Part shown: positions 3,122 to 64,000 of the stretch, piece after piece
Numbering within the stretch: position 1 is the first letter of the stretch
Layout: each line of letters begins with the position of its first letter
Origin: Acetobacteraceae bacterium
GTDB taxonomy: Bacteria > Pseudomonadota > Alphaproteobacteria > Acetobacterales > Acetobacteraceae
Direction: 5' to 3'
DNA length: 64,000 nucleotides
Assembly: GCA_024280945.1 (NCBI GenBank)
Contig: JAMXLO010000058.1
Span: 1-64,000 of the forward strand
The notes under the pieces: model-generated
Databases searched by the model: none
Seen by the model: only the letters and a program-made list of their open reading frames with translations
What the model was told of the DNA's origin: nothing
Program-made: the position numbers and the translations under genes

Positions 3122-4081
3122 TCAGAGCCAACCGCGCCAGCGGAATATGAGGAGCGGGATGATCGTGCTCACCGCAATCAGTGCCAGGCTGTAGGGATAG
3201 CCCCAGGCCCAGTCCAGTTCCGGCATCAGCTTGAAGTTCATGCCATAGACACCGGCGATCAATACCGGAGGAACGCCGGCGACCGAGACGACGGTCAGCA
3301 CTTTCATCACATTGTTCTGTGCAATGTTGATGAACCCCAGCGTGGCATCCAGCAGGAACTGCAGCTTGTCATTCAGGTGGGTGTCGAAATCGTTCAGCGA
3401 GTCGATGTCGCGCCGCAGGGTGCGGAACCTGGGGCGCAGCTCCTTGGGCAGCCAGTCCGCGGCCACGGCCTCGACGTAAGGCACGATGCGGCCCGCGCTG
3501 ACCTGGCTCTCGCGCACATGGGAGACGAGGTCGCCAACGCGGCCGAGTGCCAGAAGTGTCGCACGCAGCATGGCGTCCTCGCGCTTGCGTCCGCTCGCTG
3601 CTGCCATGTCGGCGCAGAAGATGCGATGCGAGATCGCCTCAAGCTCCGTCTTCACCTGCTCCAGCACATCGGCCTGCCGGTCGACGATTGCCTCCAGCAG
3701 CCCGACCAGGACATGCGGGCCGCTGTGTCCGGCAAAATTTGGTTGCTCTGTGAAACGATCGAACAGCCTACTCGGCGCAAAGCGGATCGTGATCAGACGC
3801 TCGGGCGTGACAACGAAGCCTATCGAGATGGAACGCGGCTCGGCCTCCGGGCGGCTGACCAGCGGCATGCTGAGATAGAGAGCGCCATTGCGCGTGGCGA
3901 GCCGGCTGGAACTCTCGATCTCACTGATTTCCAGCTCCGTCGGGATGGCGAGGCCGGTCTCACGCGCAACCCGCTCGACCTCATCCGGCGCAGGTTCGGC
4001 AAGATCGATCCACTGCGCCTGTGAGAGCCGATCCGTTGTGCGGCACAGTTTCTCGTTCAGATATTCGAATGCCCGCAGCAT
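3122..4081 (-). CDS. corA: CorA-family divalent cation channel
   Basis: A 319-residue inner-membrane protein with the CorA layout: a long soluble N-terminal domain with helical segments, then two membrane helices at the C-terminus. The signature YGMNF is present near residue 280, at the end of the first membrane helix ([21 protein letters not shown]), followed by a short acidic loop ([11 protein letters not shown]) and the second helix. Members carry Mg2+, Co2+, Ni2+ or Zn2+; the substrate is inferred only. The gene lies between ilvC (9-base gap) and the macrodomain gene on the same strand. Confidence 0.9.
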
Positions 4082-5859: not shown

Positions 5860-5873
5860 ATCATCGGTTCCAC

Positions 5874-5948
5874 GTCATGGCCGGCCGTGTGCCGGCCATC
5901 CGTCGCGGCATGGGGCGGCCCGATGGCCGGGACAAGCCCGGCCATGAC
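5874..5948. repeat. Large palindromic intergenic repeat (GTCATGGCC type), copy 1
   Basis: Two palindromic modules: GTCATGGCCGGC...GCCGGCCAT at 5874-5899 and ATGGCCGGGACAAGCCCGGCCATGAC at 5923-5948, which together also form one long inverted repeat. The second module matches, in reverse orientation, the element at 63714-63740. It fills most of the ilvB-ilvH gap. It may be a REP-like mobile palindrome and could fold in the ilv mRNA. Confidence 0.75.
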
Positions 5949-5956
5949 GGTTGGGG

Positions 5957-7735
<1,779 letters not shown>

Positions 7736-30763: not shown

Positions 30764-30850
30764 CGCCGGCCAGATTGGTTCGGTGCTGTGCTCTGTTCAA
30801 GCATGCGATGCCGATGTCAGCTCCTCCGGCGTTGTCACCCGGAGGGTATC

Positions 30851-40400: not shown

Positions 40401-42191
40401 GTGGACGCCCAAATGCAAGCTGCGTCAGGCGGGCTACCGGTGGTCAGTGGTGTCGAACCGCGAAGACTGGCGGCCTTCGCGCACGCTGACATGGTGGGCT
40501 ACAGCCGTCTGATCGGAGAGGATAGCGCGGGCACCTCCGCTCGGCTCGCACGGTTGCGCCGGGCACTGATCGATCCGGCGCTTGGGCGATATGGTGGCAG
40601 GCTCCGCAATACGGCTGGCGACTCACTGATGATGGAGTTCTCCAGCGTGTTATCGGCCGTGCGCTTTGCGGTGGAGATACAGACCCGTATACCGGAGTTC
40701 GATAATGGAGAGCCGCCGGAACGCCGCATTCGCTTCCGGATGGGCATCGATATCGGCGATGCGATACCCGACGGACAGAACATTCACGGCGATGCGGTCA
40801 ATGTCGCGGTGAGGCTGCAGTCAATCTGTCCACCTGGTGGCGTGTGCGTCGCCGCTGTCGTTCGCCACCACGCCCAAGGCCTGGATCTACGATTCGAGCC
40901 GCTTGGGAGCATCGAACTGAAGAATATAGCACGACCGGTCGAGGCCTTTGTCGTGCACCTCGATCGCCCGGCTGTGCGACTGACGGGCCGACGAGTCCTG
41001 TCGCGCTGGATTGCGGGCGGCTATTTCGAACAGGCACTGCGGAAGGATCCGCATTCGGTCGAAGCGATGGCCGGTGCCGCGACGATCCTGATTGAAGCAA
41101 ATCGCTATCTGAACCGAGCGAGTACATTGATAGCCAGGGCAGCCTTGGTGGCTCCGAATTCTCCCGACGTGCTGGCAGCCAAATTTCGTCTGTTGATGCG
41201 ACAGCAGCACGATGAACAGGCAGTCGGGACGTTCAGACAATTGCTCGACGTCGACTCGAGTGCGGCGGGTGTTGCCGCCGATTTCATCGAATGCACGTAC
41301 TGCTACCGTCGCTGGGGCCGACCCGAGGACGCTGTCCCCGCTGCTGGAACGTGCAGTCCGTCTCAATCCGCTCGCACCGAGCCGACAGGCAATCTATCTC
41401 GCACTTGGCCGTATGCTGATCATGCTCGGGCGCGATAACGAGGCAATCGATTGGCTGGAAGAGGGGATACGTGCCTACAAAGGTCTCACTCCCACGCAAA
41501 TTGCGGAGCGAGAAACATGGGACACCGTTATAGAGGATACCAAGGCAACGCTGGCCGCCGCGTACGCATTGGCTGGCCGTCTCGATGACGCGCATATGAT
41601 GCTGGCATCGGCGATGTCGTCCGATCGCATGATGGACTTCACCGTCAGGGTCTTTCTGAACAGCATCCCAGTGTATTTCGACGAACATCGCCATCAACAG
41701 GAAAAGCGCATTGCCGAGGGCCTGCGGCGTGCTGGCCTACGCGATCACCTGGATGAGCGGGCCGATTTCCACGCTGCTTCGGCTGGATACCTGCGCGACG
41801 CGGTAAACACGCCGACACCGACCGCACCACCATCGATACCGAGCAACTGGTGGAGTTGCTTCCGAGCAAACCACTGATACTCACCACCACCGCAGAGAAC
41901 CCGACGATACCAGGAGCAATTCTGGTGAACCTGCCGAACAGCGGCAGCCTGACCGACGAATGGCAGGAGGCTTTGGGAAAGCTGGTCGGGATCGCCACAG
42001 ATGGCGACAAGCAACGACCGATCGTGACATTCGCCTGGTGCATCAATCGGTGGCACAGCCGCAATCTGGCGCTGCGGCTGATCGCCCTCGGCTACACCAA
42101 TGTCCACTGGTACCGCGGCGGCTGGGAGGCTTGGGACGCGCACGATCTGCCGAAGGCGCCGCTGGTAGTCCAATTCCAGCCGCCGCGTTGA
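40401..42191 (+). pseudogene. Adenylate/guanylate cyclase-TPR-rhodanese protein broken by two frameshifts
   Basis: Three open segments in frames A-B-A form one protein. 40401 to about 41336 encodes a class III cyclase domain with both metal aspartates (D30 in HADMVGYSRL, D74 in TAGDSLMMEF) and the transition-state pair N134/R138 (DAVNVAVRL), then TPR-like helices. The C run at 41336-41339 has one extra base (AVP then LLERAVRL continues in the next frame). The second segment carries TPR repeats to about 41801, where one G is missing, returning to the first frame for DTEQLVELL and a rhodanese-like end (CINRWHSRNLALRL, WYRGGWEAWD). Because both shifts are single-base and in short homopolymers, sequencing error is possible. 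GTG start; ATG at 40413 is an alternative. Confidence 0.8.
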
Positions 42192-42193
42192 CG

Positions 42194-42574
42194 TCAGACC
42201 TTTTCGACGGCTCCCCCGCCGGCGACCCAGTCCTTGAAGCCGCCGAGATTGCGAACATCGGAGTAACCCATCTCGCGCAAGGTCTTGCCGGCCAGTGCGG
42301 CGCGTCCACCGCCCGCACAATAGAGGATCACTGGGCGATCCTTGCGCAGTGCCGGATTGTGGTTCGGCGATTCCGGATCGGCGCGCGATTCCAGCGAGCC
42401 GCGCGGAATGGCGAGTGCGCCCTTGGCCTTGCCGCTCGCCTGCAGTTCGGTGCCGTCGCGGACATCGACCAGCACGGCACCGCCGGTATCCACCAGTTTC
42501 GCGGCATCAGTGGCGCTGATTGCTGGTACCACGGCGTTGGCGGCGGCAACCATGTCCTTGTAGGTGATGGCCAT
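42194..42574 (-). CDS. Single-domain rhodanese-like protein
   Basis: A 126-residue sulfurtransferase-type domain with the DVRDGTE segment and the active-site cysteine loop YCAGGGRAALAGKTL, then LREMGYSDVRNLGGFKDWV. It may carry persulfide sulfur; the acceptor is unknown. The ATG at 42574 (MAITYKDMV) is used; the longer frame upstream lies in the DUF445 gene. It ends only 2 bases from the cyclase-rhodanese gene on the other strand and starts 17 bases after DUF445. Confidence 0.9.
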   Translation of the reverse strand: MAITYKDMVAAANAVVPAISATDAAKLVDTGGAVLVDVRDGTELQASGKAKGALAIPRGSLESRADPESPNHNPALRKDRPVILYCAGGGRAALAGKTLREMGYSDVRNLGGFKDWVAGGGAVEKV

Positions 42575-60339: not shown

Positions 60340-60915
60340 TCAGCGCAGCTCGTAGCGCAACGGCACGACGAGTTCGATCTGCTGCTGCGGCATGTCCTCC
60401 GGCAGTGCCGGCAGCGGCTGTGCGCGCTGGAACAGGTCCAAAGTCTCCTGGTCCAGCAATGCATGGCCGGAACTGCGCTCCAGCCGGAACGAAACGATCT
60501 GTCCCGCCGGCGTCATGCGGAACCGCAACAGCGTAATACCTTGCTCGCGGCGCATCTGTGCGGCGGGCGGGTAGCGCTTGAACCTCGTCAGGTGCGCCAA
60601 CAGCCGGCTTTGCCAATTGGCTGCTGCGGCCGCTGAGGGCGCGGATTGCGCAGGTGAGGTGGGGGGTGGAGGCTGGACTGGTCGTGTCGGCGCGACCGGC
60701 GCCGCCCGCGGTGCAACCGATCGGACAGGGGCGATCCGTTTGGGCTGCGAAGGCCTGGGCGGCAGCGGCACTTCTGGCGTAACCGGGGCCTGTGGCGGCG
60801 GTTCGAGCACCGGTTCCGGTGCGGGCTCTGCCGGCGAAATGTCTGGCAGTGGCTGCGCGACTGGTGGTTCCGGCGGTTGGCTGTCGAAAGGTGGTGCCGT
60901 GACCGGCGGTTCCGG
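60340..60915 (-). pseudogene. tonB: TonB remnant lacking its N-terminal anchor
   Basis: Encodes a proline-rich periplasmic spacer (from about EPPVTAPPF through PPPQAPVTPEVPLPPRP) and a complete TonB C-terminal domain (YPPAAQMRREQGITLLRFRM, then LDQETLDLFQRAQPLPALPE). The membrane anchor and its start codon are missing: upstream the reading frame runs directly into exbD DNA in another frame. Without the anchor it cannot couple to ExbB/ExbD in the usual way. It could only be expressed from an internal start. Confidence 0.8.
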
Positions 60916-61201
60916 CGCCCTCGCCGGCGCTCGCCTGGTCCAGCGCCGCGCCGAGCACATCCGCCTGCACGACGGCATCCCCCAGCCGCAGGGTGAGATC
61001 GGCCTGCACGGTCAGGAAGATCGGCTTGGCCGGGCGTGGCTCGGGCGTGGCCGCCGAGGCGGGAAGGTCGACCTTCACATCAACGGTCGCCAGCGGCGCG
61101 GCCACCATGAAGATGATCAGCAGCACCAGCGTGACGTCGATGAATGGCGTGACGTTGATGTCGTGCGCCTCTTCCAGTCGTCGGAACCCGGTTCCAGGCA
61201 C
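60916..61201 (-). pseudogene. exbD: ExbD remnant lacking its C-terminus
   Basis: Starts normally (MPGTGFRRLEEAHDINVTPF then IDVTLVLLIIFMVAAPLATV, the single ExbD membrane helix with its essential-type Asp) and continues through VDLPASAAT and IFLTVQADLTLRLGD up to QASAGEG near 60915. Then the frame enters tonB DNA out of frame and reads a nonsense tail to 60122. About 45-50 codons of the ExbD periplasmic domain are absent. Confidence 0.8.
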
Positions 61202-61207
61202 ATGCGA

Positions 61208-61435
61208 CTACTCCGCCGCGTTGCGCAGCAGGATCGGCCGCGGCGCGGCGCGGTCCAGATCGCGCGACGCCAACGCCAGTACCGCGGTGGCGAGGTCGTC
61301 CAGCAGCAGCCGGTACCCTGCAACGACGCGGGCGAAAACGTTGTAGATGACGACAGCCGGGATAGCGGCGATCAGGCTGCACGCCGTGGCGAGCAAGGCC
61401 TCGGCGATTCCGGGTGCCGCCACCGCCAGATTGGT
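61208..61435 (-). pseudogene. exbB: ExbB remnant, C-terminal third only
   Basis: Encodes TNLAVAAPGIAEALLATACS, LIAAIPAVVIYNVFARVVAG and a normal ExbB C-terminus, 7 bases before exbD. ExbB proteins are usually 220-250 aa with two more helices; here the homologous region starts abruptly at about 61435, and the upstream frame (to 61636) is unrelated sequence. The stretch 61436-61681 holds nothing recognisable. Confidence 0.8.
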
Positions 61436-61681
61436 GGCGGCACGCAGGATTTTCTGTCCGCCATCTCTGCTGCAATGTTGGCCAGCGAGCACCACGGCGT
61501 CCGAACATTGGGTATGTTGGCGACTGCGCGCCGAGCTGCTCTTCCCGCTGCCCGCCGGAGCTGACCTTGGTTCGATCAAGCGGCTGTTTGACAACCTCCA
61601 GACGCCACTGCGCGAGGCTGCCAATTTATCAGTCAAGCGTCAGCGGACATCGTCAATGGCGGCACCGACGCACTGCAGTGA

Positions 61682-63630: not shown

Positions 63631-63713
63631 CGGTTCACCTGCAAGACCAGCACTTCCTCGGGAGTAACGCCGGGCGATTGGTCAGCGCAAGACGAACGCC
63701 CATGTCGTTGGCC

Positions 63714-63740
63714 GTCATGGCCAGGCTTGTTCCGGCCATC
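63714..63740. repeat. GTCATGGCC palindromic repeat, copy 2
   Basis: GTCATGGCCAGGCTTGTTCC then GGCCATC, an imperfect hairpin matching the second module of the repeat at 5923-5948 in the opposite orientation, with two base differences. It overlaps the 3' end of glpD and supplies its stop codon. Confidence 0.7.
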
Positions 63741-64000
63741 GGTCGCTGCACCGACGGATGGATCCGTGCGGAGCCGGTGCCACCTGGCGGCTGCTGGTGC
63801 CGGACAGGTAATTATCGACAGCTGTGACGTCCGTTTCGCCGGCACGCAATCCCAGCTTGCTGCGCCGCCACAGCACATCGTCCGGGGTCTGCGCCCATTC
63901 ATGCCGCACCATCCAGTCGACCTCGCGTTCACTGAGATCGGCGCACAGGGAGCGCCCAAGATCTTCTGGGCGGCGGGCGTCGCCGAGAAGATCGCCTGCC
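63715..64000 (-). CDS. glpD: Glycerol-3-phosphate dehydrogenase, C-terminal end (partial)
   Basis: The frame is open to the right edge and gives LLGDARRPEDLGRSLCADLS, VDWMVRHEWAQTPDDVLWRR and SKLGLRAGE, which is the typical GlpD C-terminal domain. The FAD enzyme oxidises glycerol-3-phosphate at the membrane. After the conserved SKLGL the protein has an unusual tail of about 40 residues (ending SDRWPEQAWP); its last codons and stop lie in the palindromic repeat. The N-terminal part is outside the window. Confidence 0.85.
   Translation of the reverse strand, partial: AGDLLGDARRPEDLGRSLCADLSEREVDWMVRHEWAQTPDDVLWRRSKLGLRAGETDVTAVDNYLSGTSSRQVAPAPHGSIRRCSDRWPEQAWP

Follow-up and report, generated by a model that had tools for sequence, protein, structure and literature searches.

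The window, that is, the whole stretch of 64,000 nucleotides from an Acetobacteraceae bacterium that was analysed here, carries on its forward strand, between positions 40401 and 42191, three open stretches (40401-41438, 41212-41877 and a frame-A stretch that runs to 42191) in which the pieces of one gene are read in frames A, A+1 and A, respectively (Table 1). The part of each stretch that is meaningful by homology is ORF 1 up to about 41337, ORF 2 from 41340 to about 41820, and ORF 3 from about 41820 onwards (about 41821-41827). As the earlier note had pointed out, a separate rhodanese gene converges on this one at a distance of 2 bases, the two genes ending at 42194 and 42191. Neither this neighbour nor a cysteine synthase gene was found in any of 8 relative loci examined around the DUF445 gene, which is the next gene, several of these loci being cut by contig ends. 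A functional link between the window gene and the converging rhodanese gene was considered and rejected on the basis of the same 8 loci.

Table 1. Features of the window gene and of its converging neighbour (positions in the window)
Feature	Positions	Strand	Remarks
Class III nucleotide cyclase domain	40401..40970	+	GTG start 40401, alternative ATG 40413
Junction, 12 residues	40974..41009	+	nearest relative has 226 residues there; frame kept
First TPR part	41010..41337	+	cyclase frame; TPR_19 E 2.2e-7; 55% identity to G472, 93 aa
First frame change	41336..41343	+	at run of four C
Second TPR part	41340..41820	+	next frame; 49.7% identity to G472, 157 aa
Second frame change	41810..41830	+	linker shorter than in nearest relative
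Rhodanese-fold domain	41820..42191	+	Pfam Rhodanese E 8e-9
Separate single-domain rhodanese gene	42194..42574	-	CAGGGR motif; neighbour, outside window gene

The cyclase domain matches PDB entry 3mr7 (E 7.5e-34) and, under the cut-off of that family, NCBIfam LipJ (E 2.8e-10); Pfam Guanylate_cyc is not reported for it at E 0.001. It is 40-63% identical to the aligned homologs. The four residues on which the earlier note relied, D30, D74, N134 and R138, are all present, and we take them to be the two metal-binding Asp and the Asn/Arg pair. The domain thus has the metal Asp and the Asn/Arg residues of class III cyclases and is without the usual Lys/Asp purine pair, the two purine-specifying positions being presumably those occupied by N70 and N127. 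N70 is also found in G021 (L039), G472 (L119), L038 and L149; since it is common to several relatives, it bears on the choice of substrate rather than on descent. N127 occurs elsewhere only in L037 and is one of the two conserved sites, out of 33, that are changed in this domain (other rows of the alignment deviate at 0-4 of 32-35 sites in a leave-one-out count). With so few changes and all four of these residues in place, the first ORF, which comprises 345 amino acids (the cyclase, one TPR part and a short out-of-frame tail), might be taken for a working soluble cyclase, the remainder being debris. We find this improbable, because the Asp presumed to specify the purine, retained in 23 of the 24 other distinct aligned genes, has been replaced by N127, and because conservation extends to the TPRs and the rhodanese (see below), which would not be expected of old debris.

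Cyclase genes are found elsewhere in the same genome (G000). One (L214, C32, 1792-2285, minus strand) matches in three frames, and a further cyclase fragment lies near it (3281-3415, plus strand). A 555-aa ORF (L044, C125, 3482-5146, plus strand) unites a class III cyclase with a LysR-type regulator (HTH_1, LysR_substrate). The earlier note had envisaged homologs that end naturally after the cyclase domain. Such proteins do exist among the paralogs of this genome, with lengths of 233 and 265 aa, but the homologs of the clade to which the window gene belongs run on through the TPRs and the rhodanese.

Among 60 relatives, the window's genome included, matches at E 0.001 were obtained for the cyclase (24), the rhodanese (9) and the second TPR part (5). 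Within the class, 33 of 385 genomes match the rhodanese alignment at E 1e-6, and within the family 58 of 397 do so at 1e-10. When the same alignment was run against the contigs of named genomes, 54 loci were obtained; no relative was confirmed by a contig scan of genomes in which the cyclase piece served as query. Three homologs carry a cyclase, a TolB-like domain, TPRs and a rhodanese, in this order, in a single ORF, a membrane helix being present in two of the three. They come from an isolate, Paracraurococcus sp. LOR1-02 (L121/L166), and from a Hyphomicrobiales MAG and a Rhodopila MAG (L164 and L160). G021 lies on two contig ends and is, by its layout, probably one gene; it was left out of this count, since no sequence overlap was found between the ends. 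In G001, a rhodanese remnant is seen behind stops. The nearest relative, G472 (L119/L159), from an Acetobacteraceae MAG, has a cyclase, a hydrophobic helix, a TolB-like domain, TPRs and a rhodanese, and is 49-57% identical to the window gene depending on the piece (cyclase 55%, TPR 55% and 50%, rhodanese 55%). Of seven proteins compared, it is the closest to the TPR and rhodanese pieces. In a cyclase tree of 26 rows and about 180 columns (one gene stands in it twice, as L143_27 and L040_29, and the row of L147 is incomplete), the window groups with G021 (support 0.895) and next, with a support of only 0.693, with G472. By descent, the pieces of the window gene belong to the cyclase-TolB-TPR-rhodanese clade.

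What the window gene does not share with this clade is the possession of all domains in one open frame: besides the two frame changes, the helix and the TolB-like domain are gone. Residues 19-191 of the cyclase piece align with residues 16-190 of G472, and residues 204-293 with residues 417-509; between window residues 191 and 204, about 214 residues of the nearest relative are absent, in frame, and they correspond to its membrane helix and TolB-like domain. No membrane helix was found in the window pieces, where the best 19-residue mean hydropathy is 1.42 (the maxima of L121 and L164 are 2.18 and 2.27); L160 has no clear membrane helix either (1.10). The locus had been described in the earlier note as an otherwise well-conserved protein split by two single-base indels. 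That the pieces stem from one ancestral protein is borne out by the single-ORF homologs, but with some 214 residues gone, two small indels are not all that sets it apart from an intact protein.

In a frame-aware alignment with five reference proteins, the frame first shifts at 41337 with four of them and at 41343 with the fifth, in keeping with the extra C suspected in the run at 41336-41339, which indeed consists of four C. The second change is located at 41821 with L160 and L030 and at 41827 with G472 and L166, beside the shortened linker, and not at a missing G near 41802, as had been proposed; with L032, the remaining reference, this region resolves differently and contains two additional changes (41836 and 41870). 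A scan of the window for coding frame, for which 27 of its long genes served as training set, passes from one frame to another at 41316/41317 and at 41809/41810, the next stop of the frame that is left lying 119 bases past the first switch and 65 bases past the second. The remaining same-strand switches of the scan fall at or near a stop of either frame or delimit short segments (5867-5957, 30793-30836, 63651-63779), with the exception of 60602/60603, which falls in a damaged exbD/tonB stretch. This stretch is part of an exbB-exbD-tonB cluster (60340-61636, minus strand) that has suffered from decay or assembly error: ExbB covers profile positions 81-119 of 127 and ExbD positions 3-86 of 128, and the TonB C-terminal domain is complete. 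As parts of this cluster are missing, the window gene is not the sole damaged place in the window.

G472, too, changes frame once within this TPR region (L119, reverse strand, about 3260-3290, placed by homology), about 25 codons or less from the first site of the window gene. The proximity of the two sites could be interpreted as a sign of programmed frameshifting that serves to link the pieces. We give hardly any credence to this explanation: the change in G472 goes in the opposite direction (frame 0 to 2) and lies in a different sequence, the window gene would require two programmed shifts in opposite directions, and L160, L164, L166 and ten ORFs of the wHTH type (see below) are read through with no frame change. 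That the nearest relative is itself frame-changed is, all the same, a counterpoint to the view of the window gene as a broken one.

The age of the damage can be approached through the conservation of the pieces. The TPR pieces deviate at 2 of 28 conserved sites (other rows, 0-7 of 26-31) and the rhodanese at 4 of 26 (other rows, 0-10 of 23-29), in leave-one-out counts from whose consensus columns L123 was excluded. Compared with G472, the third codon positions of all four pieces differ 1.4-1.9 times as much as the first and 2.0-2.4 times as much as the second. These figures, together with the count for the cyclase, indicate that selection acted on the protein, in these frames, until the recent past. 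As there is no excess of change at conserved sites, the deletion and the shifts of frame are the sole visible signs of decay, and since the pieces are about as well conserved as their counterparts in the alignments, the damage is recent or, in part, an error of assembly. GC3 was tried as a sign of decay and was discarded as uninformative: it is 0.667 in the cyclase, 0.636 in the second TPR part and 0.767 in the rhodanese, against 0.754 and 0.691 in the two uninterrupted paralogs, and the 27 genes used for comparison had been preselected at a GC3 of at least 0.72, which makes them an unfair control.

Sequencing or assembly errors could account for both frame changes, in which case the locus would encode an intact soluble cyclase-TPR-rhodanese protein from which the helix and the TolB-like domain are truly lost. 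The similar conservation of the three pieces, the position of the first change within a run of four C and the existence of a helix-less form (L160) all agree with this possibility; the segments missing from the exbB-exbD-tonB cluster could mean either decay or poor assembly. We nevertheless regard it as unlikely, since the other same-strand switches of the scan, save 60602/60603, lie at or near stops or are short, and since the shortening of the linker at the second change amounts to more than a single base.

Judged from its sequence, then, the window locus most probably represents a receptor-type class III cyclase gene that was broken in recent times. Two further broken relatives, L214 and G001, point the same way. 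As pictured from the single-ORF homologs, the protein of the ancestor would have consisted of a cytoplasmic cyclase, usually one membrane helix and, on the far side of it, a sensor made up of a TolB-like domain, TPRs and a rhodanese fold devoid of the catalytic Cys; such an architecture suggests that a signal sensed outside altered the production of a cyclic nucleotide inside. An in-frame internal deletion would have taken out the membrane helix and the TolB-like domain, and two frame changes would have separated the remaining pieces, presumably in that order. The largest product to be expected from the cyclase start would be a soluble cyclase of 345 residues that includes one TPR part and ends in a few foreign residues. 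Lacking the helix and the TolB-like domain, the window protein would keep the sensor remnants in the cytoplasm. These losses, combined with the frame changes, lead us to read the window gene as a probably non-functional remnant. The main caution comes from L160: this protein also has no membrane helix, so that a soluble form may still be alive.

The rhodanese-fold domain was modelled with a pLDDT of 92.8, and the model resembles the rhodanese domain of 3tp9 (Z 13.1 over 98 residues, 2.0 A), GlpE (1gmx, Z 12.8) and YnjE (Z 10.8); a full-length model of L166 (mean pLDDT 70.7), in which the cyclase and the membrane region were of low quality, was left unused. In the window gene, the loop reads WCINRWHS, with a Cys that aligns with the Cys-loop Cys of 6mxv and YnjE. 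Domain architectures were tabulated, with our own profiles, for 79 ORFs with a rhodanese domain, 8 of them fetched twice, hence 71 distinct ORFs (in one, L212, the motif residues are absent). A TolB-like domain is present in 15 of the 71, ten of which also have a wHTH and three a cyclase; neither is encoded in the other two ORFs, L162 and L032, the latter being truncated by the end of its contig. Two of the wHTH-type ORFs lie in the window's genome (C26 and C108) and three in one other genome. At the position of the window's Cys, 11 of these 15 homologs carry Asn and the other 4 Gly, none of them Cys, and the nearest relative, G472, has Asn; among the tabulated sequences this Cys is peculiar to the window copy. 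L160 is the one TolB-containing homolog to retain the first Cys of the double-Cys motif, C-x(3,4)-C-W, which is found in 45 of the 56 distinct rhodanese-type ORFs without a TolB-like domain. The proposal that the rhodanese senses reactive sulfur thus finds no support. A double-Cys rhodanese also ends two ORFs of other kinds, a kinase-like one with a hydrophobic helix (L129, 504-2456, minus strand) and a caspase-like one (L136, 1941-3980, plus strand), the kinase and caspase parts having been recognized by eye.

More tentatively, and as a suggestion that may well prove wrong, TolB-like domain, TPRs and degenerate rhodanese might together form an extracytoplasmic sensor module serving either wHTH or cyclase outputs, in which the rhodanese fold would bind a ligand and have no catalytic role; the window gene could then be a soluble, rewired side branch that is being lost. 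In itself, the window gene is a caution for annotation, since three adjacent ORFs are one damaged gene. Its intact relatives matter more, in that one sensor assembly is common to transcription regulators and cyclases. They keep a Cys-less rhodanese fold, and what this fold senses can be tested in Paracraurococcus sp. LOR1-02. In the part of the literature that was covered, nothing was found on the cyclase-TolB-like-TPR-rhodanese architecture, which is weak evidence of novelty.

Several known systems resemble the window gene in part. Its rhodanese domain has the fold of the sulfurtransferases GlpE and YnjE, whose Cys is missing from the TolB-containing homologs. The best NCBIfam match of this domain is TIGR03865, the PQQ-dependent catabolism-associated CXXCW motif protein, but its 57.8 bits fall short of the curated cut-off of 128.05 bits, and the double-Cys motif is replaced by Ala and Arg. 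Multi-domain class III cyclases of about 600 aa (for instance L037 and L038, from the same genus) have the same cyclase domain and the same order of cyclase, TolB-like domain and TPRs. They end after the TPRs, whereas the clade of the window gene adds a rhodanese-fold domain; the window copy differs from them, moreover, in that its TolB-like domain is gone and the gene is broken. CadC-type regulators are built of a wHTH, a membrane helix and a periplasmic part, and the CadC model matches L030 with E 3.2e-18, under its cut-off. To our knowledge, CadC itself has no rhodanese domain. The TolB-like-TPR-rhodanese assembly is common to the cyclase clade and the ten wHTH-type ORFs, the output domain being a cyclase in the former and, in regulators of the CadC type, a wHTH.
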